This document shows positions 700 to 32,635 of a stretch of 33,420 nt of DNA, piece by piece. The DNA is from Paludibacteraceae bacterium (GTDB lineage Bacteria > Bacteroidota > Bacteroidia > Bacteroidales > Paludibacteraceae). Position 1 is the first letter of the stretch. Every line of letters starts with the position of its first letter. The notes under the pieces were generated by a model. The model searched no databases. It saw only the letters and a list, made by a program, of their open reading frames with translations, and had not been told where the DNA came from. The stretch is taken from assembly GCA_017558065.1 (NCBI GenBank), contig JAFYWK010000053.1, forward strand, positions 1 through 33,420, given 5' to 3'. Made by a program: the position numbers and the translations under genes.

Positions 700-745
700 G
701 CTTCGCTGTTAGACGTTAGACCGCCTGATGGACTGTTAGAAGTTA
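700..745. repeat. Heptamer array of the nnTTAGA type
   Basis: Two pairs of heptamers ending in ttaga (707-713, 714-720 and two more around 734-747) flank ccgcctgatggac. Bases 700-727, read on the minus strand, match 32019-32046 inside the tolC gene at 25 of 28 positions. Confidence 0.7.
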
Positions 746-760
746 GATAGCGGAGATAAA

Positions 761-796
761 AATAGAGGGCTCACAAAATGAGTCCTCTATTTTTTT
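761..796 (+). terminator. Second nqrF-type terminator
   Basis: A 13-bp stem (761-773 with 779-791, one G-U pair), loop of 5, then seven T. It shares the core GGGCTCA...TGAGTCC with the terminator at 345-375, so the duplication seems to include the terminator. Confidence 0.9.
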
Positions 797-961
797 ACGT
801 CCGAGCTTCGGCGAATCACCCAGGCGCATTGATTCGTGGTTTTGATGCGCGTTTCTGCGATGGGAATCGCAGAGCATAACAGAGGGTTGTTAGATTAAGG
901 GTAGTTGCGAATGGATAGATTTTAAGATCTTTTAATATTTTATGCAGTATGAGAGGATATG

Positions 962-985
962 TTGCATTATTGCATTATTGCATAA
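962..985. repeat. Octamer array, unit ttgcatta
   Basis: Three adjacent units (962-969, 970-977, 978-985), the third ending differently. It lies between genes. Confidence 0.7.
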
Positions 986-1090
986 AAAAATGTGTCGAAT
1001 GGGGGGCAAGTTACCTTTTTTACTTCTTTCAATTATGTCTTCCAATCGCCCAAAACGTATATTTTCTTTAATATTTCAATTTACACTCAA

Positions 1091-1139
1091 AACATTTTGC
1101 GATTTTACGCATATTTGCTGAAAAAACATTTTGCGATTT
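1091..1139. repeat. 15-bp direct repeat over the -33 box
   Basis: The 15 bases aacattttgcgattt occur at 1091-1105 and again at 1125-1139. The second copy contains the TTTG -33 element of the HD gene promoter, so a regulator bound here could compete with polymerase; equally this may be a chance duplication. Confidence 0.6.
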
Positions 1140-1160
1140 CATAAAAAAGCATTACCTTTG
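1130..1160 (+). promoter_or_regulatory. Promoter of the HD-domain gene
   Basis: Bacteroidota primary sigma factor form: TTTG (1130-1133), 19 bases, TACCTTTG (1153-1160). The ATG is 23 bases further on. Confidence 0.8.
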
Positions 1161-1183
1161 CAGAGGGAAATTATATATAAGTA

Positions 1184-1792
1184 ATGACACTGCACGAATA
1201 TATAGAGCAACAGATCTTGCCACGCTATGCGGCGTTTGACAAAGGACACCAACGAGATCATGCCCAGAGCGTGATCAATGAGAGTTTGGTACTCGCCAAA
1301 GAACATGGTGCAGATCTAGATATGGCATATACGATTGCTGCATTCCATGATTTAGGACTGGAAGTTAATCGTGAGTTGCATCATATCCATTCGGGTGAGA
1401 TATTGATGGCTGACCCCGTATTGCCAGAGTTCTTTACCGAAGAGCAACGCTGCACCATGCGTGATGCGGTAGAAGACCATCGTGCGAGCAGCAAGCATGC
1501 ACCACGGACCATTTATGGCGCCATCGTAGCGGAATCCGACCGGCATATCGACCCTGAGACGATACTCAGACGCGCATTGCAGTTTGGTATGAAGCAGAAT
1601 CCTGATGCGGATTTCGAATGGCACTTTAATCGGGCATACGAACATATGCTGGAGAAATACGCCGAAGGCGGATATATGCGTCTGTGGCTCAACTCGAAGC
1701 GCAATGTAGAGGGGTTGACTAAACTGAGAGAGATTATTGGGGATAAGGGGCTGATGAGGGAGATTTGTGAGCGCCTTTGGCGCTCCGTTTAG
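1184..1792 (+). CDS. HD-domain metal-dependent phosphohydrolase
   Basis: A 202-residue soluble protein of the HD superfamily, enzymes that hydrolyse phosphate bonds in nucleotides or similar compounds. The metal-binding pattern is visible as H26 (RDHAQSV), H55-D56 (AAFHDLG) and probably D119 (AESDRH); H67 and H69 lie close by. The substrate cannot be told. The start is set by the promoter 23 bases upstream. The C-terminus (ICERLWRSV) is encoded by a hairpin, gagcgcc-ttt-ggcgctc at 1769-1785, immediately before the stop, which may be a late extension. It stands alone: the SDR gene downstream is 101 bases away. Confidence 0.8.
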   Translation: MTLHEYIEQQILPRYAAFDKGHQRDHAQSVINESLVLAKEHGADLDMAYTIAAFHDLGLEVNRELHHIHSGEILMADPVLPEFFTEEQRCTMRDAVEDHRASSKHAPRTIYGAIVAESDRHIDPETILRRALQFGMKQNPDADFEWHFNRAYEHMLEKYAEGGYMRLWLNSKRNVEGLTKLREIIGDKGLMREICERLWRSV

Positions 1793-1810
1793 AGGAGGGC
1801 TTCGCCTACA

Positions 1811-1824
1811 GTTTAGAGTTTAAA
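1811..1824. repeat. Heptamer pair gtttaga/gtttaaa
   Basis: Two adjacent heptamers in the spacer between the HD gene and the SDR gene, related to those at 10008-10035 and 21580-21600. Confidence 0.5.
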
Positions 1825-1893
1825 GGCAAGAAATAGCGGCAAAGCCGACCCGCCTTCACACTTTACACAAGATAACATTAAAATAACAATAAT

Positions 1894-4861: not shown

Positions 4862-5785
4862 CTATTCTATCCAAGGATAGCGCTGCTGAATATCCTGCAA
4901 GCGCTTGCATATCTTCTCTTGAAACGAACGCGCCTCATCTGATTCGGGATGCAAGAAACGATGATGACGGTCACGCCATAACTGATGCAGAGTGCGCATC
5001 TCGTTTTGCGTGTCTGCCGTCATATACGCATCCACAAAGCGCTGCCAAATATACTCCACAGCTACCGACGAAGGATGCAGCATATCATCCGCATAAAAGC
5101 GATAATCGCGCAGTTCGTCCAGCATGATTTCGTAAGAAGGGAAATAGGAGCAGTGGGCTATTGACAATTGAGATAATTGCTCTATTGATTGTAAGAGAAC
5201 TGCCTTGCTGAGTTGGTTGTCATGTAGTCCATCTTTGATATGGCGAATAGGACTAACCGTGAAAATCCAATGTTTGTCGGGCATAGATGCCAATACAGGT
5301 TGCCATATGGAGACTATCTCATCCACCGTCAAGCGCCTGCGAACAAAGAGATTAGCAGGTATCTTGTGGCAATTCGAGACAACCTGACCTTCGTATTCAT
5401 ACACCCACGCTGTGCCAAAAGTGATGATCACCATTGTCGCATGCTGCAACGCCTCACGTAACTGCGCCCTACTCTGTTCGCATGCGTATAGAAGTTGCTC
5501 TTTGCTCGCACACGAGAAACTACCATGATGAGAAAACGAGTGCCATAATCCATTGTGGTGGATGATTGGGGTAAGATGGTGCGGCGATTGAGCGGTGTGT
5601 AGCGCTGAGGCAATTGAGGCAGGATTATACATTGTGCCAAAGGGATTAACCGTTGTTGGAAAATAATACTCTCCGAACTTAGTACCGATATTATCGGCAA
5701 AGCACGAACCCAGCAGCAAAATCTTATCACTGTAACTGATCTTCTTGATAGAAGGAACAATATCAACCGAAGTAACAAATTTCAT
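4862..5785 (-). CDS. GSCFA-domain protein (SGNH-hydrolase-like)
   Basis: A 307-residue protein of the GSCFA family, named after the motif that is literally present at residues 26-30 (LLLGSCFADNIG). The family is related to SGNH/GDSL esterases: the GSCFA block holds the nucleophile-like Ser27, and DDMLHPSSVAVEYIW near residue 240 supplies the D-x-x-H type Asp/His pair. VNPFGTMYNP (residues about 46-55) is also typical. The substrate is unknown. It lies 10 bases downstream of the permease gene in the same direction, so the two are probably cotranscribed, and meets the preceding plus-strand gene tail to tail with an 11-base gap. Confidence 0.88.
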   Translation of the reverse strand: MKFVTSVDIVPSIKKISYSDKILLLGSCFADNIGTKFGEYYFPTTVNPFGTMYNPASIASALHTAQSPHHLTPIIHHNGLWHSFSHHGSFSCASKEQLLYACEQSRAQLREALQHATMVIITFGTAWVYEYEGQVVSNCHKIPANLFVRRRLTVDEIVSIWQPVLASMPDKHWIFTVSPIRHIKDGLHDNQLSKAVLLQSIEQLSQLSIAHCSYFPSYEIMLDELRDYRFYADDMLHPSSVAVEYIWQRFVDAYMTADTQNEMRTLHQLWRDRHHRFLHPESDEARSFQEKICKRLQDIQQRYPWIE

Positions 5786-8810: not shown

Positions 8811-8865
8811 ACGCACTATTCACGCACAATACACGGACAATAGACGCACAATACACGCACTATTC
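8811..8865. repeat. Five tandem 11-mers, unit acgcacaatac
   Basis: Units at 8811, 8822, 8833, 8844 and 8855, all exactly 11 bp. The outer two read acgcactattc, the second and fourth acgcacaatac, and the middle one differs slightly, so the array is symmetrical in order. It lies between prfA and rsmE. Confidence 0.9.
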
Positions 8866-10000: not shown

Positions 10001-10007
10001 TGTTTTA

Positions 10008-10035
10008 GTTGAAAGTTTAAAGTTGAAAGTTTAAA
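10008..10035. repeat. Heptamer array gttgaaa/gtttaaa
   Basis: Two 14-bp units, each of gttgaaa plus gtttaaa (10008-10021 and 10022-10035). The array includes the stop codon (10031-10033) of the minus-strand hypothetical gene. Confidence 0.85.
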
Positions 10036-10663
10036 GGCCGGGCTGTTTGTCAACAGCACTCCAATACGCATCATTAGCCACTATACCTTCTGCGCGGAGC
10101 TTCAAGTTTTGTACAAATCGCACCAATCGCCAATCGATAGTATCGCTATACACTTTGCGAGAGATGAATATACGGAAGAACCAACCGAACTTCACATGCA
10201 CATCCATACCTATTTTCGAAGTATTCTCACCCGTAGGTTGTATATGAAATGAGCCGTATGCTTCCTTTATCAGCGTACCAGCATAGCGTATATCCACTCG
10301 AATGTCGCGGCGTTCACCCGCCAAACTATCAGTCACATATGCCCCAATCACTACATCCCTGAGAAAAGGTTTTTCATTCACCAACACATCCAAGACCAAC
10401 TTGCTATACTGCTTTTCGGGATAATAGGACGACTCCTTCCACTCCAGATAAAAGGCATTTTTGTCTGTATCCTCTTGCATACCCAATCCAGCAAAATACT
10501 GCTCTGATAGCAGTTCGGGATTGGTTTGCAGACAATATATCATATCATCGACAACCGCATTGCACGAATCTGCCGTAGCAGTCACCTCTGTTTCGTAAGT
10601 GGTATGAAACATACCATTCGAAAGTGAAGTTAATACCGAAAACAATATCGCAAATACAACCAT
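10031..10663 (-). CDS. Hypothetical exported protein
   Basis: A 210-residue protein with a hydrophobic N-terminus (VVFAILFSVLTSLSNG) that fits a signal peptide or anchor. The rest looks like mixed alpha and beta with no motif I recognise; alternating strands such as KLVLDVLVNEKPFLRDVVIG and DIRVDIRYAGTLIKEAYGSF and the final helix TIDWRLVRFVQNLKLRAEGI would suit a START/SRPBCC-like helix-grip fold, but this is only an impression. It sits between the amgK-rapZ fusion and prfA in the same direction with short repeat-filled spacers, so cotranscription is likely. Confidence 0.65.
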   Translation of the reverse strand: MVVFAILFSVLTSLSNGMFHTTYETEVTATADSCNAVVDDMIYCLQTNPELLSEQYFAGLGMQEDTDKNAFYLEWKESSYYPEKQYSKLVLDVLVNEKPFLRDVVIGAYVTDSLAGERRDIRVDIRYAGTLIKEAYGSFHIQPTGENTSKIGMDVHVKFGWFFRIFISRKVYSDTIDWRLVRFVQNLKLRAEGIVANDAYWSAVDKQPGL

Positions 10664-10664: not shown

Positions 10665-10700
10665 CTCTAAACACTAAACAGTAGCGCAGCGTCCACTAAA
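10665..10700. repeat. Heptamers of the type cactaaa
   Basis: ctctaaa (10665-10671) and cactaaa (10672-10678), then 15 bases containing agcgcagcg, then cactaaa again (10694-10700). It fills the spacer between the fusion gene and the hypothetical gene. Confidence 0.65.
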
Positions 10701-13137: not shown

Positions 13138-13919
13138 TGAAAGCAATGATTTTTGCTGCGGGACTGGGCACACGTCTCAAGCCGCTAACTGATACTATGC
13201 CAAAGGCACTTGTGCCTTTGGCCGGTAAGACATTGCTACAATGGCAGATAGAAAAACTGAAAGCAGCGGGGATTACCGACATTGTGGTCAATGTACACCA
13301 CTTCGCCGATAAGATCATTGACTACCTTCGCGAGAACAATTATTTCGGATGCAATATTCAAGTAAGCGATGAACGCGACATGCTACTTGAAACGGGAGGG
13401 GGACTACGCAAAGCTAAATCCTTACTTACAGGCTTCCGGCTTCCGGCGTCCGAATGCCCAAAGGATCCAATACTGATTTGCAACGTGGATATCCTATCCA
13501 ATATAGACATCCCTACTCTACTAAAAGCATATAATCCAGACGAGATGGGCGTAGTAGTTGTCTATCCACGCGATACACAGCGCTACTTACTCTTTGACGA
13601 TAGCAGTCGCCTCTGCGGTTGGACCAATATTGCCACTGGAGAAGTCCGAGGCCCCGTAGCCGACAATCAATATCCGATAGCCAATACCCGAAAGTTAGCC
13701 TTCTCTGGCATGCAACTGCTTAATCCCCGCATTTTCGAGGTAATGGATAAGGTAGTAGCCGAGAAAGGAGAGAAGTTTTCGTTGATAGACCTATACTTGA
13801 GTATTGCAGAAAAAGAAATTCTCAGAGCTTTTATCCCTGAGAATTATCGTATGATGGATGTGGGCAAAATCAACCAACTCTCCGAAGCTGAATCTTTCGC
13901 GACCACACTTGTCCAATAA
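13137..13919 (+). CDS. MurU-like sugar-1-phosphate nucleotidyltransferase
   Basis: A 260-residue nucleotidyltransferase of the GT-A-like fold. The start KAMIFAAGLGTRLKPLTDT has the GxGTRxxP signature with Lys23 following (MPKALVPLAGK); GGGLRKA and NVDILSN (metal-binding Asp) are clear. The size and the NVDILSN motif match MurU (N-acetylmuramate-1-phosphate uridylyltransferase), the partner of AmgK in peptidoglycan recycling, and an AmgK-like gene lies 1 kb away. Two parts look inserted relative to the family: LTGFRLPASECPKD, coded by a heptamer array at 13433-13453, and VADNQYPIANTRK, coded by another at 13660-13694. Both lie outside the catalytic motifs. Confidence 0.88.
   Translation: MKAMIFAAGLGTRLKPLTDTMPKALVPLAGKTLLQWQIEKLKAAGITDIVVNVHHFADKIIDYLRENNYFGCNIQVSDERDMLLETGGGLRKAKSLLTGFRLPASECPKDPILICNVDILSNIDIPTLLKAYNPDEMGVVVVYPRDTQRYLLFDDSSRLCGWTNIATGEVRGPVADNQYPIANTRKLAFSGMQLLNPRIFEVMDKVVAEKGEKFSLIDLYLSIAEKEILRAFIPENYRMMDVGKINQLSEAESFATTLVQ
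13433..13453. repeat. Heptamer array inside the MurU-like gene (cttccgg)
   Basis: Two perfect units and one imperfect unit, in frame, encoding GFRLPASE between the GGGLRKA and NVDILSN motifs. Confidence 0.65.
13660..13694. repeat. Second heptamer array inside the MurU-like gene
   Basis: Five heptamers alternating between a ccga-type (13660, 13674, 13688) and a caata-type (13667, 13681). The unit ccaatac also occurs in the hemW array at 26572. Confidence 0.65.
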
Positions 13920-21579: not shown

Positions 21580-21600
21580 CTTTAAACTCTAAACTTTAAT
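21580..21600. repeat. Heptamer array ctttaaa
   Basis: Three heptamers (21580, 21587, 21594). The third contains the stop codon complement of the minus-strand nitroreductase gene (21596-21598). Confidence 0.75.
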
Positions 21601-22105
21601 CTATTTGTGTTACCTTATCGTATTGCAGTTTCTCAAAATCAAACGGCTTTCTTTCTTCATTCTTGTAGCCCAGCGACATCACGCACAGCACCGTAAAGTT
21701 CTCTGGCAGATTGGTCAACTTGCGCACCAAGTCCTCCGCGCCTTCTCTTTGATACACATGACACCAGCAAGCACCCAATCCTTGATCAGCAGCAGCGAGC
21801 CATATGTTCTGCGCAGCGATAGCGGCATCACATTGCCAGGTATCAATCACGCTTGTGTCCGCAGCCACCACGATGCCCGCCATAGCGGTGTCAAACATAC
21901 CACTACCATAGGTGCGACAACCTGCCAATTGGCGCAATATCGCCTCATTCTTAATCACCACGAAATGCCATGGGTTCATTCTTTTGCCCGCAGGCGACAT
22001 CAGTGCACAGCGGATGATATAGTCCAGTTTCTCCTGCTCTACTGGCTGGTCTGTGTATTTTCTATATGAGCGCCTTAGTTGGCACAAACTCTGAAAATCT
22101 TGCAT
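21596..22105 (-). CDS. Nitroreductase family protein
   Basis: A 169-residue FMN-dependent nitroreductase-like oxidoreductase. The N-terminus RRSYRKYTDQPVEQEKLDYI carries the RRSxRxY flavin phosphate-binding motif; SPAGKRMNPWHFVVI and AAQNIWLAAADQGLGACW are typical. It is the short bacterial form. The natural substrate is unknown. It has a good promoter upstream and begins the minus-strand run to pdxA and alaS. Confidence 0.9.
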   Translation of the reverse strand: MQDFQSLCQLRRSYRKYTDQPVEQEKLDYIIRCALMSPAGKRMNPWHFVVIKNEAILRQLAGCRTYGSGMFDTAMAGIVVAADTSVIDTWQCDAAIAAQNIWLAAADQGLGACWCHVYQREGAEDLVRKLTNLPENFTVLCVMSLGYKNEERKPFDFEKLQYDKVTQID

Positions 22106-22164: not shown

Positions 22165-22232
22165 CAAAAATGCAGAAAGATTACTTTCGCCCAAAAAGTT
22201 CACCACCTTTCACCCATTTTTCAGCGATCAAT

Positions 22233-22265
22233 CGTTAGTTATTCGTTAGTTATTCGTTAGTTATT
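22233..22265. repeat. Three perfect 11-mers, cgttagttatt
   Basis: Identical units at 22233, 22244 and 22255 in the spacer between the nitroreductase promoter and the EamA terminator. Confidence 0.9.
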
Positions 22266-22351: not shown

Positions 22352-23281
22352 TCAACTCCGCCTTTGGCTTACGAACAATCCCACAATAATCACCACGATG
22401 CCCACCAGTTTCCACACAGGCAACACCTCGCCAAAGATCAACCACATCAATATCGCCGTAAACACAGGGCGCACATTGTTAAATACATTCGCCCTCGTCA
22501 CACCAATCTCGCGCACCGTATAGCAAAACAGCACAAACGCCGCCACCGAAGCCAACACTGCCAGATACACCACCGCCGCACAACTTCTCCACCACACAGC
22601 ACCACCGCTACACAACTCTACACCACTGCTACACCATTCCACACCACCGCTATACAACGCTTTTCCACCCCACACTACATAGAACAACAACAACGCAAAC
22701 GACTGCACATAAAACACGATACTCAACGGCGAGTAACGCGTAGGAATCTTGCGTAATATCACCGAATAACTCACTGACATACTGACCGTTAACACAGCCA
22801 GCAACACACCCCACGAACTTCCCAATGCGAAGTCATTCGCCCCTACCAACAGCAGCATCAGCATACCCACAGTCGATAGCACAATACCTATAATATTATT
22901 GCGTGTTACTCGCTCGCGTAGGAGTACCAAGGCAAACAATGGTGCCATCACAGGTTGTGTACTCAGCAAGGCCTCCGCTATCGTGGGCGAAGCAAAACTC
23001 TGATACGTATAGGTCTCGAAAATAAAATACAAAAACGGCTGAAACAGTCCCCCCAACATAAACAGCGGCAAGTCTTTACTATCCACTTTTTGCAATCCCA
23101 CCACCTCGTTCTTGCGAAACACCAAACCGATACACAACATCAGCAACACCGCCAATGTAAAACGCAATACGATGAGCGTCAGCGGACTAAAAACCACCAA
23201 CGCCTCTTTCACGGCAATCCCAGCACCTGCCCAAATGAGCATGGCAGTAACTACCGACAAATAGGGTATAATCTTTTTCAT
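22352..23281 (-). CDS. EamA-family (DMT) transporter
   Basis: A 309-residue inner membrane transporter with ten predicted helices in two EamA repeats (start KKIIPYLSVVTAMLIWAGAG; second repeat around SSWGVLLAVLTVSMSVSYSV; end LVGIVVIIVGLFVSQ). Such proteins export metabolites or drugs; the substrate is unknown. The start is placed at the ATG directly before KKIIPYL; the longer frame is non-homologous and crosses the promoter. The -7 box ends four bases before this ATG, so the mRNA is probably leaderless. Between helices in the second half lies a threefold 7-residue repeat (YSGGVEW, CSSGVEL, CSGGAVW) coded by three 21-bp units. Confidence 0.88.
   Translation of the reverse strand: MKKIIPYLSVVTAMLIWAGAGIAVKEALVVFSPLTLIVLRFTLAVLLMLCIGLVFRKNEVVGLQKVDSKDLPLFMLGGLFQPFLYFIFETYTYQSFASPTIAEALLSTQPVMAPLFALVLLRERVTRNNIIGIVLSTVGMLMLLLVGANDFALGSSWGVLLAVLTVSMSVSYSVILRKIPTRYSPLSIVFYVQSFALLLFYVVWGGKALYSGGVEWCSSGVELCSGGAVWWRSCAAVVYLAVLASVAAFVLFCYTVREIGVTRANVFNNVRPVFTAILMWLIFGEVLPVWKLVGIVVIIVGLFVSQRRS
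22592..22654. repeat. Three 21-bp units inside the EamA gene
   Basis: Units at 22592, 22613 and 22634, each built of a 10-mer and an 11-mer related to ctacacaacg, the unit found in rarA (25387-25416). In frame, 7 residues per unit. Confidence 0.85.
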
Positions 23282-23414: not shown

Positions 23415-25010
23415 ATGCTTACCCATCTACACATACGCAACTACGCCCTTATCTCGCACCTCGACATTGATTTCCACGAGGGATTCTCCGTCATGACAGG
23501 CGAAACGGGTGCTGGTAAGAGTATCATACTCGGTGCACTCAATCTGGTGATGGGCGCGCGTGCCGACACCAAAACCATCACCGAAGGCGAAGAGCGCTGC
23601 GTAATTGAGGCAACATTCGCTGAGGCGAAAGGCGATGAGGCGATAAGGCAGGAGATCATCATTCGCCGCGAACTCAATACCAATGGGCGTTCGCGTTCGT
23701 TTGTAAACGACGAGGTGGTCACCCAAGCCGAACTCAAAGCACTGGCACGCCAACTCATAGACATCCACTCACAGCACGAGAGTCTAATGCTCGGAGACGA
23801 CCTCTTCCAGTTGCAGATAGTAGATAGCATTGCCAACAACCAAGCTGAACAAGACGCCTACTCTGCTGCCTACGAGCGTTATACCCAAGCTCAACACGAG
23901 TTGCATCAATACCAGCAACGCGCTGCCAAAGCACAAGCCGATGCCGACTACGTGGCTTTCCAATGGCAACAATTGGAAGACGCTCACCTACAAGCCGACG
24001 AATTAGAAGAACTCGAAGCCGAGGAATATCGACTTGCACATGCCGAGGAGATACAATCCGCACTCGCCACTGCCCTACAGCAACTGGATAGCGATAACGG
24101 AGCCCTTTCACTCATACATGCCAGCAAGTCGGCTATCGCCAATTGCCAATTGCCAATCGCCGATCGACTCGATAGCGTAGAAATCGAACTCAAAGATATC
24201 GTTTCCGACATCCAACGCCTCTACGACCGCACCGAACGCGACCCCATGCGTTTGGAGCAAGTGCAAGAGCGACAAAGCATGCTACAAACGCTGATGAAGA
24301 AACACCGCGTGCAGACCATCGCCGAACTCATCGCGTTGCACGAAGAATTGGGATTGCAGATGCAGCAACTCGCAAATTACGACGAAGATATAGCGCGCCT
24401 ACAAGGCGAACTGGAGCAAGCCAAACAGGTGCTATCCGCATCTGCAGACGCCCTTACCGCTTCGCGTAAAAAAGTCTGTTCCCCTACTCCTTCCCTTTCA
24501 GAGGGAGCTCGGGAGGGGGATTCTATAGCCTCTCGCCTCATTGAAGACATGCAACGCCTCGGAGTGAAGCATGCAAATGTGGCTGTGCAAATCACCCCAA
24601 CGGAGGATTTCACACCTACAGGCAAGGACGATGTGCAGTTCCTGTTTGCAGCCAACCTCAACCAATCGCTTCGCCGCGTAGCGGAAGTGGCTTCGGGAGG
24701 TGAGATTAGCCGATTGATGCTGTGTATCAAGGCATTGATTGCTTCCACCAACGGACTGCCGACTATCATCTTCGATGAGATAGACACGGGTGTCAGCGGT
24801 GCTATCGCCAGCCAAATGGGCGAGATTATGCGGCAGATTGCCGCTTCGCGTCAGGTGATTAGTATCACCCACTTACCACAAGTAGCGACGAAAGGCGAAC
24901 ACCATTATTTAGTATATAAGGAAGATACAGACGTCCGCACCGAAACACACATCCGCGAACTCACCACACCCGAACACGAAGCCGAGATTGAGAAGATGAG
25001 ACAACTATAA
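23415..25010 (+). CDS. recN: DNA repair protein RecN, possibly C-terminally shortened
   Basis: A 531-residue SMC-like ATPase acting in double-strand break repair. Walker A GETGAGKS is at 29-36, followed by the central coiled coil, the signature ASGGEISRLML, and Walker B TIIFDEIDTGVSG with THLPQVA after it. The start is the ATG before LTHLHIRNYAL, 40 bases after the promoter. Three oddities: a heptamer array coding IANCQLPIADR (24138-24165), an insert-like SPTPSLSEGAREGDS (24481-24523), and an end at EIEKMRQL where RecN proteins usually run on for some 30 residues (EIARMLSG...). The ATPase core is intact, so it may still work. Confidence 0.93.
   Translation: MLTHLHIRNYALISHLDIDFHEGFSVMTGETGAGKSIILGALNLVMGARADTKTITEGEERCVIEATFAEAKGDEAIRQEIIIRRELNTNGRSRSFVNDEVVTQAELKALARQLIDIHSQHESLMLGDDLFQLQIVDSIANNQAEQDAYSAAYERYTQAQHELHQYQQRAAKAQADADYVAFQWQQLEDAHLQADELEELEAEEYRLAHAEEIQSALATALQQLDSDNGALSLIHASKSAIANCQLPIADRLDSVEIELKDIVSDIQRLYDRTERDPMRLEQVQERQSMLQTLMKKHRVQTIAELIALHEELGLQMQQLANYDEDIARLQGELEQAKQVLSASADALTASRKKVCSPTPSLSEGAREGDSIASRLIEDMQRLGVKHANVAVQITPTEDFTPTGKDDVQFLFAANLNQSLRRVAEVASGGEISRLMLCIKALIASTNGLPTIIFDEIDTGVSGAIASQMGEIMRQIAASRQVISITHLPQVATKGEHHYLVYKEDTDVRTETHIRELTTPEHEAEIEKMRQL
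24138..24165. repeat. Heptamer array inside recN, unit gccaatt
   Basis: Four heptamers (24138, 24145, 24152, 24159), the first two identical, coding part of IANCQLPIADR in the coiled-coil region. Confidence 0.8.
24481..24523. repeat. GC-rich palindromic repeat inside recN
   Basis: C-rich then G-rich imperfect palindrome with the core ccttcccttt also seen between rsmE and PAP2 (8035-8072). In frame, encoding SPTPSLSEGAREGDS. Confidence 0.6.
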
Positions 25011-25085
25011 ATCGCGCCCTGTAAATACTTCCAGCGAAGCGAACTTCAAGCAAAGCGAACTACCAACTATAAACCACAAACAATC

Positions 25086-26405
25086 ATGCTGCCACTCGCA
25101 GAACGCATGCGTCCAAAGACGCTCAACGAATACATCGGTCAGAAGCACCTCGTAGGTGAAGGCGCTATCCTTCGCCAGATGATAGAGAACGGCAATCTAT
25201 CTTCCTTCATACTATGGGGTCCTCCCGGTGTAGGCAAGACCACGCTGGCACGCATCATCGCTCATCAGTTGGAGCGTCCATTCTACACTCTATCCGCTGT
25301 CACCAGCGGCGTGAAAGAGGTGCGCGAGGTCATCGACAAAGCCAAACGCTTTAGTACAATGAATAGCGGACTCTTCGCCTCCAACCCTACACAATCCTAC
25401 ACAACGCTACACAACGCAGCACCCACCTCCCCCATCCTCTTCATCGACGAGATTCACCGTTTCTCCAAGTCGCAGCAGGATAGTCTGTTAGGTGCCGTGG
25501 AAGAAGGAACGATCACGCTGATTGGTGCCACCACCGAGAACCCCTCATTTGAAGTCATCACACCGTTGCTCAGCCGTTGCCAAGTGTATGTGCTGAAGCA
25601 TTTGGAGAAAGACGACCTGCTGGAACTCCTCCACCGCGTACTGACCACCGACGAACACATCCGCAGCCTAAATATAGAACTGAAAGAAACAGAAAGCATC
25701 CTGCGCTATTCGGGTGGCGACGCACGCAAGCTGCTCAATATCATCGAACTAGTCACCAATTCGGGTGTCAAAGTCATTGACAACGACACAGTCACCAAGC
25801 AGCTACAGCAGAACCCTGTGGCATACGACAAAGACGGCGAGTTGCACTACGATATTATCTCCGCTTTCATCAAGTCGATTCGCGGTAGTGACCCCGATGC
25901 GGCACTCTATTGGCTGGCGCGCATGGTAGCCGCAGGCGAAGACCCCAAGTTCATCGCCCGCCGATTGGTCATCTCCGCAAGCGAAGATATCGGACTGGCT
26001 AACCCCAACGCGATGTTGGTGGCGAACGCTTGCTTCGATACCTTGCAGAAGATTGGTTGGCCCGAAGGACGTATTCCGCTGGCTATGGCTACGGTCTATC
26101 TTGCCACATCACAAAAGTCCAATTCTGCGTATCTGGCTATCAATCAGGCATTGGAGTTGGTGGAAAAGACGGGCAACCTGCCTGTGCCATTGCATTTGAG
26201 AAATGCGCCTACCAAACTCATGGACGATCTGGGCTACGGACACGACTACCTCTATTCCCACGATTTCCCTAATCACTTTGTCAAACAGCAGTTTATGCCC
26301 GATGCCCTGCAAGGCACCCAACTCTGGCACGCCCAAGGCAGTCCACAAGAGCAGAAAATGGCAGAATGGATGAAGCACCTTTGGGGCGACAAAGATAAAC
26401 TGTAA
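25086..26405 (+). CDS. rarA: Replication-associated recombination protein A
   Basis: A 439-residue AAA+ ATPase of the RarA/MgsA/WRNIP1 family, acting at stalled replication forks. It starts LPLAERMRPKTLNEYIGQKH; Walker A GPPGVGKT is at 45-52, Walker B LFIDEIHRF at 119-127, sensor GATTENPSFEVI, and the C-terminal tetramerisation part with YLPDxL-like HDFPNHFVKQQFMPD. Between KAKRF and SPILFIDE (residues about 92-115) there is extra sequence (FASNPTQSYTTLHNAAPT) coded by a 10-mer array. It follows recN by 75 bases and precedes hemW by 27; one operon is likely. Confidence 0.96.
   Translation: MLPLAERMRPKTLNEYIGQKHLVGEGAILRQMIENGNLSSFILWGPPGVGKTTLARIIAHQLERPFYTLSAVTSGVKEVREVIDKAKRFSTMNSGLFASNPTQSYTTLHNAAPTSPILFIDEIHRFSKSQQDSLLGAVEEGTITLIGATTENPSFEVITPLLSRCQVYVLKHLEKDDLLELLHRVLTTDEHIRSLNIELKETESILRYSGGDARKLLNIIELVTNSGVKVIDNDTVTKQLQQNPVAYDKDGELHYDIISAFIKSIRGSDPDAALYWLARMVAAGEDPKFIARRLVISASEDIGLANPNAMLVANACFDTLQKIGWPEGRIPLAMATVYLATSQKSNSAYLAINQALELVEKTGNLPVPLHLRNAPTKLMDDLGYGHDYLYSHDFPNHFVKQQFMPDALQGTQLWHAQGSPQEQKMAEWMKHLWGDKDKL
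25387..25416. repeat. Three 10-mers inside rarA, unit ctacacaacg
   Basis: Units at 25387, 25397 and 25407, the last two identical. 30 bp keep the frame. The insertion lies just before Walker B. Confidence 0.85.
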
Positions 26406-26433
26406 ACTGTCAATTGTCAACTGTCAACTATCA
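26406..26433. repeat. Heptamer array running into the hemW start codon
   Basis: Four heptamers of the form actgtca (26406, 26413, 26420, 26427). The last base of the array is the A of the hemW ATG. Confidence 0.85.
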
Positions 26434-27521
26434 TGGCTGGCATATACATACATATACCATTTTGCAAAAGTCGCTGTAAGTACTGCGACTTTTTCTCTAC
26501 TACCCACATCGAGAAGCAAGCGCAGTATGTGGAAGCATTGCTCACAGAAATGCAAGACCGCCTGCCCATATCCAATACCCATTTCCCCATATCCACCATA
26601 TATATAGGTGGTGGGACACCAAGTACACTACAAGTGGAGCACCTACAAACCATACTAAGGGCTATCAGGCAAAAGGCAAAAGGCGAAAAACAAGAGATTA
26701 CCCTCGAAGCCAACCCTGGAGATATAACTCCCGAGAAAGCACGCGCATGGCGAGAACTGGGTATCAATCGACTGAGCATCGGGGTGCAGAGTTTTGATGA
26801 TGAACTCTTGCAACTCATTGGCAGACGGCACAATGCAGAACAAGCACGCCAAGCAGTGACCATAGCACAAGAAGCAGGATTCGACAATATCTCCATCGAC
26901 CTGATGTACGCACTTCCATCACAAACCATGCAGCAGTGGCAATCCGATGTAGCACAAGCCCTGCAACTCGGCGTGCAACACATTTCCTCATATGGCCTTA
27001 TCTATGAGGAAGGCACTGTACTCACCACCCTACTCGATCATGGTGTAGTAGAAGCGGTGGACGAAGAAGTGGAGATGCAGATGTATGATTATCTGGTGGA
27101 GCAATTGACTGCGAATGGATTTATCCATTACGAGGTAAGCAATTTCGCACTGCCCGACTGCGAGTCGAAACACAATTCCAGCTATTGGAACAACACACCC
27201 TATATCGGTCTGGGCGCAGGAGCGCACAGCTACGACGGTGAGCAACGCCAATGGAACATCAGCGATTTGGACACCTATATCCAGCAAGCCAATGCCCACC
27301 AACTACAACCCGAAACAGAACGACTAACCGAAGAACAGCGACATATGGAACGCATCATGCTCGGACTACGCACCCAGCAAGGCATAAGCCAAGAGTGGGT
27401 CCACATGGATGCCGCACAACCGTATATTCAACAAGGATTACTCACCGAAAAAGCAGGTCGATTGATAGCTACAACCAAAGGTTTTCATATCCTCAATCGT
27501 ATCATAGAAGACCTGCTGTAG
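26433..27521 (+). CDS. hemW: Radical SAM coproporphyrinogen-III-oxidase-like protein HemW
   Basis: A 362-residue radical SAM protein. The 4Fe-4S motif CKSRCKYC (Cys11, 15, 18) follows the characteristic IYIHIPF; IYIGGGTPS, TLEANPGDIT and NRLSIGVQSFDD are all as in HemW, as are EVSNFA and WNNTPYIGLGAGAHSY. HemW binds heme and is thought to be a heme chaperone rather than a true HemN, since the extra Cys of HemN is absent here too. Two short stretches look added: PISNTHFPIS before the GGGTPS strand (heptamers 26565-26599) and KAKGEKQE (26667-26687). Confidence 0.93.
   Translation: MAGIYIHIPFCKSRCKYCDFFSTTHIEKQAQYVEALLTEMQDRLPISNTHFPISTIYIGGGTPSTLQVEHLQTILRAIRQKAKGEKQEITLEANPGDITPEKARAWRELGINRLSIGVQSFDDELLQLIGRRHNAEQARQAVTIAQEAGFDNISIDLMYALPSQTMQQWQSDVAQALQLGVQHISSYGLIYEEGTVLTTLLDHGVVEAVDEEVEMQMYDYLVEQLTANGFIHYEVSNFALPDCESKHNSSYWNNTPYIGLGAGAHSYDGEQRQWNISDLDTYIQQANAHQLQPETERLTEEQRHMERIMLGLRTQQGISQEWVHMDAAQPYIQQGLLTEKAGRLIATTKGFHILNRIIEDLL
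26565..26599. repeat. Heptamer array inside hemW (cccatat/ccaatac)
   Basis: Five heptamers; the unit cccatat occurs at 26565 and 26586, 21 bp apart, giving the repeated peptide PIS. Confidence 0.65.
26667..26687. repeat. Heptamer array inside hemW, unit aggcaaa
   Basis: Two identical units and one with a single change (26667, 26674, 26681), coding part of RQKAKGEKQ. Confidence 0.65.
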
Positions 27522-28372: not shown

Positions 28373-29712
28373 GTACTATTTGCGCCATATCAACCCCTTA
28401 CGGCAGCGGCGGAATAGCTGTCGTTCGCGTAAGCGGTGAGTCTGCTATACAGATAGTGGACACCCTGTTTCATGGGCGTAAGTCGCTCACGGAAGCCAAA
28501 GCATATACTGTGCATTATGGGGAGATAGTCAATGAGCAGGAGATTCTTGACCAAGTATTAGTGAGCGTCTTCCGTGCGCCTCATTCGTTCACGGGCGAGG
28601 ATGTGGTGGAGATTGCTTGCCACGGCAGTATGTATATCCAACAGACACTTTTGCAATGGCTCGTGGATGCAGGTTGCCAATTGGCTAAGGCGGGCGAGTT
28701 CACCCAACGCGCTTTCCTCAACGGTAAAATGGACCTTACTGAAGCCGAAGCCGTAGCCGACTTGATTGCTGCACAAACGAAAGCCGAAAAAGACTTAGCA
28801 CTCAGCCAATTGCGTGGTGGTATTTCCAACGAGTTGGCTATGCTCAGAGAGCGACTACTAACCTTCACTTCGCTCGTAGAACTGGAGTTAGACTTCGCCG
28901 ATCACGAAGAGCTGGAGTTTGCAGACCGAAGCGAGCTGTTTGCCCTCGCACAAGAGATTGATACCACCATCGGCAATTTAGTCCGCTCTTTCAAGACGGG
29001 TAATGCCATTAAACAGGGTATCCCTGTAGCGATTATCGGTGCGCCTAATGTGGGCAAGTCCACGTTGCTGAATGCCCTACTCGGCGAAGAGCGCGCCATC
29101 GTGAGCGACATTCAGGGTACTACTCGCGATACGGTGGAAGACACACTGGTGCTCGACGGTATGCTCTTCCGCTTCATCGACACCGCTGGCTTGCGACAGA
29201 CAGATGATACAATTGAGAACTTAGGCATTGAGCGTAGCCGCCAAGCAGCCCAAAAAGCAGTTGTGCTCATTCACCTGCAAGATGCTACTCAACCCGTGAA
29301 CATCTTGGCGGAATTAGATGATACCAGCGAGAAGAAGATTATACAAGTATATAATAAGGTGGATCTTTTAGGCAAGGAGGCGATGAGGCGAGAAGGTGAT
29401 GAGGCAAGGATCTATCTCTCTGCTAAAAGCGGCAATGTAGAGGTACTGAAGCAACAATTAATCAACTTTGCTCGCGAGCAGTACGACACACGCAACGCGG
29501 TGACAATCAGCAACACACGCCACTATGAGGCATTGGTTCGCGCGCAAGATGCTATCCAACGCGTACAAGACGGACTGCAAATGCAGATCAGCGGCGAGTT
29601 CCTCAGCATGGACCTGCAAGACTGCCTGTCTGCCCTCGGCGAAATAACAGGACAAATCACCTCACAAGAGGTCTTGAACAATATTTTTGGCAAATTCTGT
29701 ATCGGAAAATAG
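28369..29712 (+). CDS. mnmE: tRNA uridine-5-carboxymethylaminomethyl modification GTPase
   Basis: A 447-residue protein that, with MnmG, modifies wobble U34 of several tRNAs. The N-terminal folate-binding domain starts MSTICAISTPYGSGGIAVVR; the G domain holds GAPNVGKST (224-232), DIQGTTRDTVED (switch), DTAGLR and NKVD; the protein ends in the essential FGKFCIGK. The start at 28369 is chosen because STICAIS is the usual beginning and it gives an ATGA overlap with prmA. An octamer array at 29377-29408 codes KEAMRREGDEAR just after NKVDLL. Confidence 0.96.
   Translation: MSTICAISTPYGSGGIAVVRVSGESAIQIVDTLFHGRKSLTEAKAYTVHYGEIVNEQEILDQVLVSVFRAPHSFTGEDVVEIACHGSMYIQQTLLQWLVDAGCQLAKAGEFTQRAFLNGKMDLTEAEAVADLIAAQTKAEKDLALSQLRGGISNELAMLRERLLTFTSLVELELDFADHEELEFADRSELFALAQEIDTTIGNLVRSFKTGNAIKQGIPVAIIGAPNVGKSTLLNALLGEERAIVSDIQGTTRDTVEDTLVLDGMLFRFIDTAGLRQTDDTIENLGIERSRQAAQKAVVLIHLQDATQPVNILAELDDTSEKKIIQVYNKVDLLGKEAMRREGDEARIYLSAKSGNVEVLKQQLINFAREQYDTRNAVTISNTRHYEALVRAQDAIQRVQDGLQMQISGEFLSMDLQDCLSALGEITGQITSQEVLNNIFGKFCIGK
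29377..29408. repeat. Octamer array inside mnmE, unit gaggcgat
   Basis: Four octamers (29377, 29385, 29393, 29401) in the G domain between the NKVD motif and the SAK motif. Similar sequence occurs in the spacer at 29712-29732. Confidence 0.7.
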
Positions 29713-29732
29713 AGGCGAGAGGTTAAAGGCAA
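29712..29732. repeat. Heptamer array after mnmE
   Basis: Three heptamers related to gaggcga between the mnmE stop and the small lipoprotein gene; similar to the array inside mnmE. Confidence 0.6.
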
Positions 29733-29736
29733 GGAT

Positions 29737-29940
29737 ATGAGAAAGAAAATAAATATATTATTAGGTGCACTGATAGCCCTGTTGGGCGGATGTAAAAGCC
29801 AAAAAAATATGCCTGAACAAAGCGAAAGAATCATGGTCATGTATGGTCCGCCTGCGTATTTCCAACAACAAGCACAACCTAACGACACAACACAAAATAA
29901 CATAGAACAAAATAACATAGAACAAACTCAAAATTCATAA
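29737..29940 (+). CDS. Small putative lipoprotein (67 residues)
   Basis: A 67-residue protein with a lipoprotein signal: KKINILLGALIALLGGC with lipobox LLGGC and Cys19. The mature part is about 48 residues, hydrophilic, with MVMYGPPAYFQQQ; short Bacteroidales lipoproteins with a YGPP-like motif are common next to unrelated genes. The tail is low-complexity (NNIEQNNIEQ), coded by two perfect 15-mers (29893-29907 and 29908-29922). Its stop codon lies in the next heptamer array. Function unknown. Confidence 0.7.
   Translation: MRKKINILLGALIALLGGCKSQKNMPEQSERIMVMYGPPAYFQQQAQPNDTTQNNIEQNNIEQTQNS
29893..29922. repeat. Two perfect 15-mers in the small lipoprotein gene
   Basis: The unit caaaataacatagaa is repeated exactly, giving NNIEQ twice. 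Confidence 0.85.
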
Positions 29941-29959
29941 TTCTTAATTCATAATTATG
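29932..29959. repeat. Heptamer array spanning a stop and a start codon
   Basis: Four heptamers of the form aattcat (29932, 29939, 29946, 29953). They contain the TAA of the lipoprotein gene (29938-29940) and the ATG of yicC (29957-29959). Confidence 0.9.
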
Positions 29960-30856: not shown

Positions 30857-30890
30857 GACAAGGGATACAAAAATCAACGTAAGTTTTATT

Positions 30891-30927
30891 ATCGCCATTT
30901 ATGCTCCATGCATAGATGGCGATTTTT
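30891..30927 (+). terminator. Terminator after yicC
   Basis: Long stem-loop 30891-30923 with outer arms atcgccat/atggcgat and an inner TATGC/GCATA pairing, followed by five T. Confidence 0.9.
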
Positions 30928-30940
30928 GTAAACAACATAT

Positions 30941-31081
30941 CCAAAAGTGCTTTTTCTTAAGATTTCCATCTCTTTGTACCTTCCTTATTCCCCTCTTATA
31001 AAAGACCAAGGAGAAACCAAAGAAGAACCAAGGAACGACCTAAGAACACCCAACCACCAAAAAGTGCTTTTTATTAAGATT
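30941..31081. repeat. Direct repeat aaaagtgcttttt-n-ttaagatt
   Basis: Copies at 30941-30964 and 31057-31081 differ by one extra A and one substitution. They bracket the 11-mer array. Confidence 0.75.
31003..31056. repeat. Array of five 10/11-mers, unit agaaccaagga
   Basis: One 10-mer followed by four 11-mers (31013, 31024, 31035, 31046), increasingly diverged. Confidence 0.6.
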
Positions 31082-31101
31082 GGCTACCTCAAAGAAATCT
31101 T

Positions 31102-31185
31102 TGTTACGGTAACATCGACTGTCTGCCTCCCCTGCCAAATGCCTCTGTCAATTTCCTTTACACCCCTTTGTAAAGTTTCTTTACA
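31102..31185 (+). promoter_or_regulatory. Putative enhancer sites upstream of tolC
   Basis: TGTTAC-G-GTAACA (31102-31114) is a perfect palindrome. TGTAAAG-TTT-CTTTACA (31169-31185) is a perfect 7-3-7 inverted repeat, with another CTTTACA half-site at 31156-31162. They lie about 55-140 bases upstream of the sigma-54 promoter, the place where NtrC-type activators bind. Confidence 0.6.
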
Positions 31186-31240
31186 CTCTCGCACAAGTAC
31201 CAAAATGTCACATCGCTGATAATCAACACCTTTCATATTT

Positions 31241-31256
31241 TGGCACGCCCTTTGAA
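31241..31256 (+). promoter_or_regulatory. Predicted sigma-54 promoter of tolC-hlyD
   Basis: TGGCACG (31241-31247), four bases, TTGAA (31252-31256), compared with the sigma-54 consensus TGGCACR-N4-TTGCW; the -24 GG is present and the -12 GC reads GA. The start would be near 31267, 20 bases before the ATG. No primary sigma-type promoter is seen here. Confidence 0.65.
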
Positions 31257-31285
31257 TAGTATATTGCAGAACAAAATCAATCAAT

Positions 31286-32635
31286 ATGTTAAAGCAATAT
31301 ACTATCCTTCTCCTCTTCTGTCTCTGCGCCGCCCATAGCGCAGCCACCTCCCTTTCCCTCCGCGACTGCATGGAGTATGCCATCGCCCATTCTGCGAAAA
31401 TGGAAATCCAACGCGCTAACAACGACGATGCCCGCATCGCACACCGCGAAGCCATCCTCCGTGCTTTCACCCCCACTATCCAAGGCGGCACATACGCCTC
31501 GCTGAACTTCGGACGCGGAATAGACCCCGAAACCAACAATTACATCTCCACTACCTCGTTCAACAACGGCTACTCCCTATCGGGTGCTATCACGCTGTTC
31601 AACGGTTTTTCGGCTGTCAATAACCTCAAAATCACCAAGACTGCCATCAAGATGGGCATCGCAGAGGAGCAACAACTCCGTGACCAAATATGCCTCGCAG
31701 TCATGGAGGCATACTGCAATGTCGTCTATTTCACTCAGATGACTGAAGCCTTGCAAGTCCAAGTCGCTACCGCCAACAGCAATCTGCAATTGGCACAGCG
31801 CCAAGAACAATTGGGGCAGAAAAGCCATGCCGATGTCATCCAACTCGAAGCCGACCTCGCCGAGCGCGAATATCAGTACATCACCATGACCAACCAACTC
31901 AACGACGCCCGCATGACCCTCCAAGACCTCATGCTGTGGGAGGAAGACCACGAATTGCTCATAGACCTCCAGAGTACCGAGAATCTAACAGCGAGCCACG
32001 CGAGCGGTCTAACAGCCGCAGGCGGTCTAGTATCTAACAGCGAAGCTCTTCACCACCCATCCGTCGCACTGGCTGCCTATCGCATGGCTAATGCCCAACT
32101 CGATCTCAGTACAGCTCGCTGGCGATTGGCTCCGTCGCTCTCCCTCTCAGGCGGTTGGTCAACGGGTTACTACACCTATCCCCGTACCCAAGACTATGTA
32201 GCCATGCCTTTTGCCAGTCAGTTCATCAACAACAGCGGCGAGTATGTGCAGTTGTCTTTGTCTATCCCTATCTACGATGGCTTATCGCGCCAGTCGAATA
32301 TCGTGCGCAAGAAAAACGCCTACCGCCGTGCCGAAGCCGAGTATCGCCAAACACTGCGTGAGGTAGAGGCAGAGATGGCGCGTGCCGTGCAAGACCGTGA
32401 TGGTGCAATGGCAGCCCTCAAGCAAGCCGACCGCCGAGCCAAAGCGCAACAGGAGGCATATGCCATCAATAGCAAGAAGTTCGAACAAGGGCTTATCTCT
32501 CCCCTCGAACTCAAGACCTCATCCGACAACCACCTCAATGCTCAAGCCGAGCACCTCAACGCCCAGCTGAAGTACTTCATCAAATCCTGCGTAGTCCGCT
32601 ACTACAACGGAACCCCATATCTTGAACAACTCTAA
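31286..32635 (+). CDS. TolC-family outer membrane efflux protein
   Basis: A 449-residue exported protein with a signal peptide (YTILLLFCLCAAHSAA). TolC/OEP features: SLRDCMEYAIAHSAKMEIQ at the mature start, SLSGAITLFNGFSAVNNL (the first membrane strand region), a long helical hairpin (NLQLAQRQEQLGQKSHADVIQLEADLAE), and in the second repeat LSIPIYDGLSRQSNIVRKKNAYRRAEAEY. Trimers of such proteins form the outer membrane channel of tripartite efflux or secretion systems. The HlyD-type adaptor follows by 33 bases. Between the two repeats there is odd sequence, LTASHASGLTAAGGLVSNSEA, coded by a dispersed repeat (31984-32046). Confidence 0.92.
   Translation: MLKQYTILLLFCLCAAHSAATSLSLRDCMEYAIAHSAKMEIQRANNDDARIAHREAILRAFTPTIQGGTYASLNFGRGIDPETNNYISTTSFNNGYSLSGAITLFNGFSAVNNLKITKTAIKMGIAEEQQLRDQICLAVMEAYCNVVYFTQMTEALQVQVATANSNLQLAQRQEQLGQKSHADVIQLEADLAEREYQYITMTNQLNDARMTLQDLMLWEEDHELLIDLQSTENLTASHASGLTAAGGLVSNSEALHHPSVALAAYRMANAQLDLSTARWRLAPSLSLSGGWSTGYYTYPRTQDYVAMPFASQFINNSGEYVQLSLSIPIYDGLSRQSNIVRKKNAYRRAEAEYRQTLREVEAEMARAVQDRDGAMAALKQADRRAKAQQEAYAINSKKFEQGLISPLELKTSSDNHLNAQAEHLNAQLKYFIKSCVVRYYNGTPYLEQL
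31984..32046. repeat. Dispersed repeat inserted in tolC
   Basis: The heptamer tctaaca occurs at 31984, 32008 and 32033, with tctagta at 32026, separated by agcg/ggcgg-rich segments. Bases 32019-32046 match the minus strand of 700-727 at 25 of 28 positions. Confidence 0.8.

Follow-up and report, generated by a model that had tools for sequence, protein, structure and literature searches.

Relation to known repeat systems

The tandem arrays described here, with short and mostly 7-nt units, are scattered through a 33,420-nucleotide stretch of a draft Paludibacteraceae genome (G000:C64:1-33420, hereafter the window), and the known class that they look like is the long simple sequence repeats of prokaryotes. 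According to PMC4679880 and PMC4692102, Mrazek, Guo and Shah (2007) reported such repeats with units of 5–11 nt in a sporadic distribution and proposed slippage for them, with heptanucleotides, as the first of these papers has it, the most abundant class in most genomes. In both systems, units of 5–11 nt occur beyond chance, heptanucleotides are commonest and the phylogenetic distribution is sporadic. Here, however, about one third of the period-7 arrays lie in reading frames with non-triplet units, the triplet-unit majority that characterizes coding long simple sequence repeats is not seen, and units are degenerate and mixed, with a genome reusing its own lexicon of words. The arrays thus look like a new variant of the class: non-triplet units enter conserved proteins, units are mixed and degenerate, and the lexicon is specific to the genome.

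A sequence-only reading of the window had taken no such system to be known for Bacteroidales. This is too strong: MacGregor (2015; PMC4679880) describes TAACTGA direct repeats in Beggiatoaceae, cyanobacteria and five Bacteroidetes including Paludibacter. Those heptamers resemble some of ours in adjoining start codons and spanning stop codons, and lie in a few cases within proteins, mostly at protein ends. They differ in having one favoured word whose single-letter variants are rare as repeats, whereas our arrays form a degenerate family, use different words and reach into the internal loops of conserved proteins. The exact tandem pair TAACTGATAACTGA does not occur in the whole genome carrying the window (hereafter the host genome), and among the open-access titles and abstracts listed, none dealt with heptads of degenerate sequence, or with loops or signal peptides coded by heptads, in Bacteroidales.

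Short tandemly repeated repetitive (STRR) sequences are heptanucleotide repeats of cyanobacteria, while Rickettsia palindromic elements (RPEs) are palindromes of about 100–150 bp with a common sequence, inserted in frame at tolerated sites of conserved genes. Our arrays share with RPEs the in-frame insertion into conserved genes at tolerated sites, but are short direct repeats without a common sequence, and no common palindromic element with homologous copies was found among array flanks and array lists. With the cyanobacterial repeats they share the presence of heptads at many loci; those arrays, however, carry a signature of slippage (z −9.9) that is barely present in the genus, and their words are not common to the two groups above chance. 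GGGGA(C/T)T heptads in Nostoc are described by Rehm (2015; PMC4692102). The tandem repeats of Borgs, according to Schoelmerich (2023; PMC9879509), are likewise recent and independent in origin, lie in genes and spacers and create new protein segments, but their in-gene units are divisible by three and virtually all their sequences are unique, neither of which holds here. A 2025 survey (PMC12699852) reports an enrichment of six- to nine-bp units in prokaryotic phyla and a high repeat content in the Bacteroidota.

Excess of arrays and preferred unit lengths

Tandem Repeats Finder (score at least 30, hits merged) returned 37 arrays in the window. Dinucleotide-shuffled versions (500-bp blocks, 100 replicates) averaged 5.89 and never exceeded 14. 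Restricting periods to 6–11 left 26 arrays (shuffle mean 4.65, maximum 13), and at a score of at least 44 there were 18 against 0.5. The excess of about twenty short-unit arrays claimed by the sequence-only reading is thus borne out, at a density above that of any shuffled version, and extends well beyond the window. Its list of sites held for the larger part. Under local dinucleotide shuffles at the period it had claimed, 17 of 21 sites reached P ≤ 0.007, the other four being weak (0.012–0.036: site 13660, P = 0.016; 26565, 0.013; 29712, 0.036; 22592, 0.012). Three of the 17 (700, 1811 and 10665) have only about two copies each, and some periods had been misjudged: the best period is 14 at 10008 and 13660 and 16 at 29377, and site 22592 is better described as a 21/32/42-mer.

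For comparison, we sampled 299 kb of the host genome (2.44 Mb, 83 contigs, 94% complete), namely the window and 18 readable stretches, two of the 20 drawn (L012, L020) reading N; 643 kb from 36 congeners, small samples of 6–45 kb each; and 386 kb from 21 genomes of other families in the same order. Period-7 arrays (score at least 10, laxer than the exact-repeat count below) numbered 45 in the host sample (15.0 per 100 kb), 122 in the congeners (19.0 per 100 kb, ranging from 0 to 115 by genome) and 13 in the other families (3.4 per 100 kb, from 5 of 21 genomes), with 0–0.3 per 100 kb in shuffles. The heptanucleotide class is the commonest, followed by period 14, its double (7.0–9.2 per 100 kb), and period 11 (6.1–6.7). 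Exact tandem repeats, examined at lengths up to 45 nt with none longer than 24 nt, show the same preference: in congeners, host genome and other families there are 86, 21 and 8 of 7 nt, 20, 10 and 2 of 11 nt, and 11, 11 and 2 of 8 nt. At 10/12/13 nt the counts are 2/3/0 in congeners, 2/2/0 in the host genome and 2/1/0 in other families. Reading-frame selection would favour 6, 9 and 12 nt, and the pattern of preferred lengths differs from this.

Two genomes of other families, G060 and G052, have frequent period-7 arrays (7 over 20 kb and 3 over 10.8 kb, respectively), indicating that the trait reappears outside the genus.

A genome-specific lexicon

As the sequence-only reading had claimed, related words recur within the genome. 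Arrays less than 300 bp from another were left out of the word-recurrence test, the trained-model scores and the label permutation, which retained 42 of the 45 host arrays for word recurrence. Among these, 11 word pairs are identical (0.9–1.6 expected) and 68 differ by at most one letter (18–25 expected). When genome labels were permuted over 139 arrays from 25 genomes, same-genome near-matches numbered 121 against 81±12, the largest of 300 shuffles giving 123.

The lexicon is most visible in genome scans for AGGYKAR in three consecutive copies, in which overlapping matches within one array are counted separately. The host genome has 177 matches, its two closest sisters 98 and 99, five other congeners 53, 48, 46, 34 and 28, and the remaining 29 congeners 0–15; 14 of the 36 congeners have none, and all 24 other-family genomes together have 7. 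The reversed pattern, used as a control, gave no match in the host genome, 24 in G027 and up to 7 elsewhere. With the variable letters left open (AGGNNAN in three copies), there are 271 overlapping matches in the host genome against 13 for the reversed form. A template derived from the host genome, G[GT]N[GT]A, fits 28 of 45 host arrays against 8.0 (maximum 15) under column permutation; in held-out data it fits 3 of 8 arrays in the sisters (1.7) and 30 of 114 in the other congeners (17.5, maximum 25). The cyanobacterial figure of 42 of 98 against 18.6 is biased, since the word used to select those loci can itself match the template. Of the reversed pattern, G027 has 23 forward matches, so this genome may draw on a separate lexicon.

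The idea of one lexicon for several phyla, suggested by similar cyanobacterial peptides, is not supported at the level of words, which are common no more than expected by chance. A scan for AAYTGYC in three copies finds arrays in many phyla (at least 117 stretches at no fewer than 80 loci). With arrays containing the searched word excluded from the outside groups in both word-sharing and trained-model comparisons, the genus and the cyanobacteria have 5 necklaces in common against nulls of 8.1 and 10.8, and all six comparisons fall within the null range. In a model trained on the host genome, cyanobacterial words nevertheless outscore local 7-mers (z 3.9) as well as shuffled units (z 2.0), with words near the searched one dropped; for other Bacteroidota the result is not clear (z 1.5 and −0.3), and with genus-wide training three outside groups reach z 2.4 to 4.3. 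These scores are compatible with a weak common template across phyla, although the loci were mostly chosen by one word and may be biased.

Where the arrays lie

Reading frames are simple longest-frame calls rather than an annotation, and in the counts of period-7 arrays "inside a frame" refers to frames of at least 200 aa. Gene names follow NCBIfam: recN, hemW, mnmE, prfA, alaS and the YicC family score above cut-off, while the RarA-like ATPase, the MurU-like nucleotidyltransferase, the nqrF fragment and the EamA-type transporter (which we take to be the label of the TIGR00950 match) score below it. The arrays and related features of the window are as follows.

708–745, plus strand: heptads GTTAGAC/GTTAGAA, 2+2 copies, intergenic, 3' of the nqrF-like fragment (P = 0.007)
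962–983, plus strand: octads TTGCATTA, 2.8 copies, intergenic
1807–1825, plus strand: heptads AGTTTAG/AGTTTAA, 2 copies, intergenic (P = 0.005)
8811–8863, plus strand: 11-mers ACGCACAATAC, 4.5 copies, intergenic
10007–10036, minus strand: heptads or 14-mer AGTTGAAAGTTTAA, filling the gap from a stop codon to the prfA start and fitting the template GKNKANN
10667–10683, plus strand: heptads CTAAACA, about 2 copies, intergenic (P = 0.001)
13431–13452, plus strand: heptads GGCTTCC in the MurU-like nucleotidyltransferase gene, peptide GFRLPASE; the loop has GGTTACG in G003 and AAATCCT in G022
13660–13690, plus strand: weak heptad/14-mer stretch in the same gene, peptide DNQYPIANTR (P = 0.016); other arrays at this loop in G014, G021 and G022
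17837–17895, plus strand: CTAG-rich 9-mers adjoining alaS
21580–21602, plus strand: heptads CTTTAAA/CTCTAAA in an intergenic gap
22232–22265, plus strand: 11-mers TCGTTAGTTAT, 3.1 copies, intergenic
22566–22658, minus strand: 11/21/42-mers of the CTACACAACT type in the EamA-type transporter gene, in a loop of variable length among 21 orthologues
23623–23649, plus strand: octads AGGCGATA/G in recN, peptide EAKGDEAIRQE
24129–24166, plus strand: heptads AATTGCC in recN, peptide SAIANCQLPIADR, replacing a shorter loop with a net gain of 2 aa over most orthologues
24480–24522, plus strand: palindrome resembling a repetitive extragenic palindrome (REP) in recN, 13-aa insertion CSPTPSLSEGAREGDS
25027–25061, plus strand: 16-mers ACTTCAAGCAAAGCGA in the recN-rarA gap
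25382–25417, plus strand: 10/11-mers CTACACAACG in the rarA-like gene, peptide NPTQSYTTLHNA, a linker ahead of the ILFIDEIHRF motif
26396–26433, plus strand: heptads AACTGTC, spanning the rarA stop codon to the hemW start codon
26565–26587, plus strand: weak heptads in hemW, peptide LPISNTHFPIST (P = 0.013); the loop has an 11-mer array in G005
26667–26688, plus strand: heptads AAAAGGC in hemW, peptide RQKAKGEK; AAAGACG at that place in G025
29370–29408, plus strand: 8/16-mers GAGGCGAT in mnmE, peptide GKEAMRREGDEAR; other arrays at this loop in G001, G002, G003 and G007
29711–29722, plus strand: weak AGAGGCG heptads across the mnmE stop codon (P = 0.036)
29924–29956, plus strand: heptads AATTCAT/AATTCTT, adjoining the start codon of the YicC-family gene
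31005–31053, plus strand: 11/22-mers AACCAAAGAAC, intergenic

Other features of the window include a 91.7% identical copy (590–685) of the last 96 bp of the nqrF-like gene (233–328), which forms the end of another short frame some 260 bp downstream; a 51-bp piece (223–272) that recurs inverted and 80% identical at 436–482; and a repeated promoter-like motif upstream of genes at 1153, 12262, 15850 and 23369, TAnnTTTGCA, of a kind typical of Bacteroidetes.

The coding arrays lie in stop-free open reading frames (13431, 13670, 22566, 23623, 24129, 25382, 26565, 26667 and 29370) and leave the proteins unbroken, in agreement with the earlier claim of in-frame placement. As none of the unit lengths 7, 8 and 11 nt is divisible by three, the frame is kept only by the total length of an array. 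Period-7 arrays are depleted in frames: 16 of 45 lie inside in the host genome, where frames cover 74% of the sequence, and 46 of 122 in the congeners (coverage 85%), while periods 6, 9 and 12 together contribute 12 and 27 arrays inside frames. Among in-frame units CG outnumber TT by 34 to 23, against 32 to 76 out of frame, and this coding preference is as stop avoidance predicts. This base contrast is consistent with a filter against disruption and stop codons. In an analysis of unit strings and strand that excluded one of 56 AGK arrays, 16 of the 37 out-of-frame arrays have a same-strand stop codon within 30 bp, and 15 of the 18 inside frames are in the sense orientation; the proximity to stop codons likewise fits such a filter, but could also reflect function.

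Alignments of RecN, RarA, HemW, MnmE, the nucleotidyltransferase and the EamA-type transporter place the arrays in stretches of variable length, away from conserved motifs, as had been claimed. For the nucleotidyltransferase, MnmE and the transporter this was seen over 24, 24 and 21 orthologues. The RarA-like linker, built of 10/11-mers just 5' of ILFIDEIHRF, is longer than in most of 28 congeners, and sisters G014 and G025 have linkers almost as long with different sequences. HemW carries two array peptides in its alignment with congeners. The same peptides do not occur at the same places in aligned congeners, which also speaks against the second refuting case named by the sequence-only reading, shared peptide segments in distant genera; one HemW site has a related array in sister G025. 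The loops of the nucleotidyltransferase, MnmE, the transporter and HemW have been hit repeatedly, with arrays that differ among congeners. Nucleotidyltransferase residues 92–98 are coded by three distinct heptads (host genome, G003, G022); MnmE residues 338–342 by heptads in G001, G002 and G003, those of G002 and G003 differing by one letter, and by octads in G007 and the host genome; and transporter residue 268 lies at heptads in G002, G003 and G004. Between the host genome and G025, the HemW site has a different word at the same place, with letters altered in step in two neighbouring units and no indel. Near aligned HemW residues 314–320, 11-mer arrays of related but different sequence stand at approximately one position in G002, G015, G026, G030, G034 and G036.

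Peptides that by eye resemble the palindromic RecN insertion (NSLPLREGAGGGL in G025, LSPQGERV in G015) occur in two nucleotidyltransferase loops that hold heptads in the host genome.

The gaps between recN, rarA and hemW are at most 8 bp in 11 of 25 congeners (recN-rarA) and in 4 of 13 (rarA-hemW). Apart from the host genome, an array passes the threshold in 4 of 25 and 5 of 13, respectively. In the recN-rarA gap the words are 16-mers in the host genome, TAAATCG/TAAATTG in G007, AGG heptads in G014, octads in G015 and TAAACTC in G025, with a sub-threshold TAAATCG stretch in G035 resembling that of G007. In the rarA-hemW gap they are AACTGTC in the host genome, 11-mers in G009, octads in G015, TAAATCG in G035 and near-identical TAAACNC heptads in G007 and G017. 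G015 uses one octad in both gaps, and G035 one heptad. Gap arrays often take in the stop codon and reach into the start codon, as in G015 and G035. The inclusion of stop and start codons, together with the use of one word in two gaps of a genome, points to a local origin, with words following the genome more than the place.

In the window, the arrays at 10007, 26396 and 29924 adjoin start codons, and the coding arrays lie elsewhere. In the congeners, 20 of 46 in-frame period-7 arrays fall in the first tenth of the frame. Judged by eye and by a simple hydrophobicity count, these N-terminal arrays make up, or precede, leaders resembling signal peptides; MKGERLKVKGILILFFLSIFNFQFSTCYAQ in G015 is one such heptad-coded N-terminus. 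One secreted family (LLYEISGNG and similar) has heptad leaders in G002, G015, G031, G034 and G035, the first word being common to G015 and G035 and the others differing, and a 690-aa lipoprotein-like frame has differing leader words in G032 and G035. The same loops, gaps and signal peptides thus hold mostly different words among congeners; the arrays are young.

Adjacent secreted-protein genes in two congeners (L061:15690-19400 and L070:1-3650) share upstream regions in which heptads and near reverse complements could, judging from the sequence, fold into long imperfect hairpins whose first arm encodes the charged part of the leader and whose second arm encodes the hydrophobic part. At L019:4163-4185 and 5301-5327, tandem paralogues have a 69-bp flank that is 90% identical and related but different spacer heptads.

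Order of units and origin of the arrays

We tentatively favour repeated tandem duplication of preferred lengths, with units exchanged or biased and the results filtered by tolerance. The excess, the favoured lengths, the mostly independent origin of arrays, their depletion in genes and the lexicon typical of the genome are observed; how arrays grow, what happens at the polymerase and the exchange of units are inferred. The genus would have a high rate of short tandem duplication, mainly of 7, 8 and 11 nt, with new arrays arising independently in each species where extra DNA does little harm: in gaps from stop to start codon, variable-length loops, gene ends and signal peptides, where they would become coding sequence. 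Loops of 7–11 nt probably lie beyond the mismatch repair protein MutS, and short single strands may patch chromosomal sites through microhomology. Slippage or template switching by the polymerase may form DNA loops of this size that escape repair, and arrays might grow by one to three units per step. Words would be drawn from a genome-typical lexicon, in the host genome mostly G[GT]N[GT]A plus two letters, kept common by exchange between arrays of one or two units at a time or by bias of the process, with selection deciding where arrays stay. Loss of mismatch repair was considered and rejected for the host genome, which has full-length mutS1 (G000:C83) and mutL (G000:C26); over all 61 genomes, mutS1 passes the cut-off in 57 and mutL in 56.

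Several observations weigh against this reading. In 45 AGG arrays of at least three units, identical neighbours number 20 of 163 against 20.6 from random draws, in a test pooling unbiased stretches with stretches picked because of AGG matches; the AGG profile takes in only family-fitting arrays, part of its conservation thus being by construction. In period-7 arrays of at least four units, the neighbour difference in the host genome is 1.24 against 1.35 after within-array shuffling (z −2.3). Exchange is not directly seen, array pairs sharing three-unit strings numbering 15 against 13.0±3.2 in within-array shuffles. Words common to species occur at one gap (G007/G017, and G007 with the sub-threshold G035) and in the transporter (G002/G004), so that not every array is independent. 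Finally, under laxer scoring, lengths of 9, 10, 12 and 15 nt are also in excess in the host genome (3.0, 3.7, 2.7 and 5.4 per 100 kb against 0.3–1.0 in shuffles), although by less than the main lengths.

Identical AGG units number 21 of 118 at lag two (14.6 expected) and 18 of 73 at lag three (9.2), as duplications of 14 and 21 nt would give, and a first reading of AGG units as fully independent was too strong, since similarity returns at these lags. Shared three-unit strings exceed an all-array shuffle (15 against 7.2±2.8), a null that also reflects differing composition; four-unit strings are shared twice against 0.7 in within-array shuffles, which does not show copying of longer blocks. In the congeners neighbours differ by 0.98 against 1.08 (z −3.2), in other Bacteroidota by 1.02 against 1.22 (z −4.3) and in cyanobacteria by 0.81 against 1.16 (z −9.9); neither Clostridia (z 0.5) nor the 8 arrays sampled from other families of the order (z 0.8) show such likeness. 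For simulated slippage z lies between −7.5 and −10.3, which makes one-unit slippage a poor sole cause here and leaves room for duplication of two or three units.

Plain local replication slippage, in which a chance two-copy seed grows with no exchange between arrays, is accordingly an explanation that we hold doubtful but worth taking seriously. Period 7 recurs across phyla with words common no more than by chance, arrays take in local stop and start codons, neighbours are slightly alike in the host genome and the genus, and block copying is not seen, all as slippage would have it. Yet words recur about tenfold above chance within the genome, the open AGG pattern outnumbers its reverse by 271 to 13 while 14 of 36 congeners lack AGGYKAR triplets, and AGG neighbours are exchangeable. 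The slippage idea of the sequence-only reading therefore poorly accounts, in its plain form, for one-genome word families and mixed unit order. The heptads might instead be degenerate binding sites, for example of an RNA-binding protein at transcript ends, kept by selection and turning over, with the lexicon as the specificity. The placement and strand of AGK arrays near stop codons and inside frames would fit, and PMC4679880 suggests a role in translational regulation for TAACTGA repeats. We nevertheless think it improbable: one genome has several unrelated words, loops and signal peptides are filled as well, most congeners (21 of 25 and 8 of 13) lack an array in the orthologous gaps, and the strand bias could be due in part to effects of reading frame and stop codons.

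At lag one, AGG units do look like independent draws of a degenerate word, and the lexicon is specific to a clade and the preferred lengths few. That the genome writes degenerate GKNKANN heptads, perhaps templated, as near-independent draws from such a lexicon, yielding new spacers, loops and signal peptides, seems to us quite improbable, and a dedicated writer, a reverse transcriptase or primase with a short degenerate template that adds heptads at nicks or stalled forks, is very doubtful, as octads, 11-mers and many words per genome would require several templates and the similarity at lags two and three resembles duplication. A mobile short element carrying the arrays, like an RPE, a REP or a miniature inverted-repeat transposable element (MITE), had also been proposed from the sequence. 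The many dispersed loci, the in-frame insertions and the single REP-like palindrome in recN would suit it, but it is already largely contradicted and highly improbable. The 24 flank matches (8 at the same locus or in paralogues, 10 other short repeats, 5 promoter-like and 1 unplaced) mark no carrier, copying of three-unit blocks is not seen, and words mostly differ between species at the same place. The 13-aa palindromic insertion is absent from 29 other RecN loci aligned in the genus, no second copy was found in the sequence set of the exact-repeat count, and a Y1 transposase (PF01797) was not found in the 94%-complete host genome by a search that detects it in 5 of 14 control genomes.

Biological meaning

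The host genome and many of its close relatives appear to fill gaps, loops and export signals with short repeats, mostly of 7 nt. Bacterial heptamer repeats were already known; their recurrent use in rewriting parts of proteins appears to be a new variant. For annotation, peptides such as KGERLKVKG and DNRYPIS are to be regarded as repeat products, not domains. If the favoured reading is correct, where heptamer repeats come from would become testable by comparison of strains; these repeats have been on record since 2007, and slippage has only been a proposal. Were the writing of GKNKANN heptads true, it would amount to the creation of peptides from nothing, distinct from slippage and transposition. 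The arrays would also be a natural experiment on how much extra peptide conserved enzymes tolerate, and where, and would suggest that signal peptides can arise from repeats. A whole genus would then be using short repeats to rewrite export signals and those parts of conserved proteins that are dispensable, with a density varying greatly by species.

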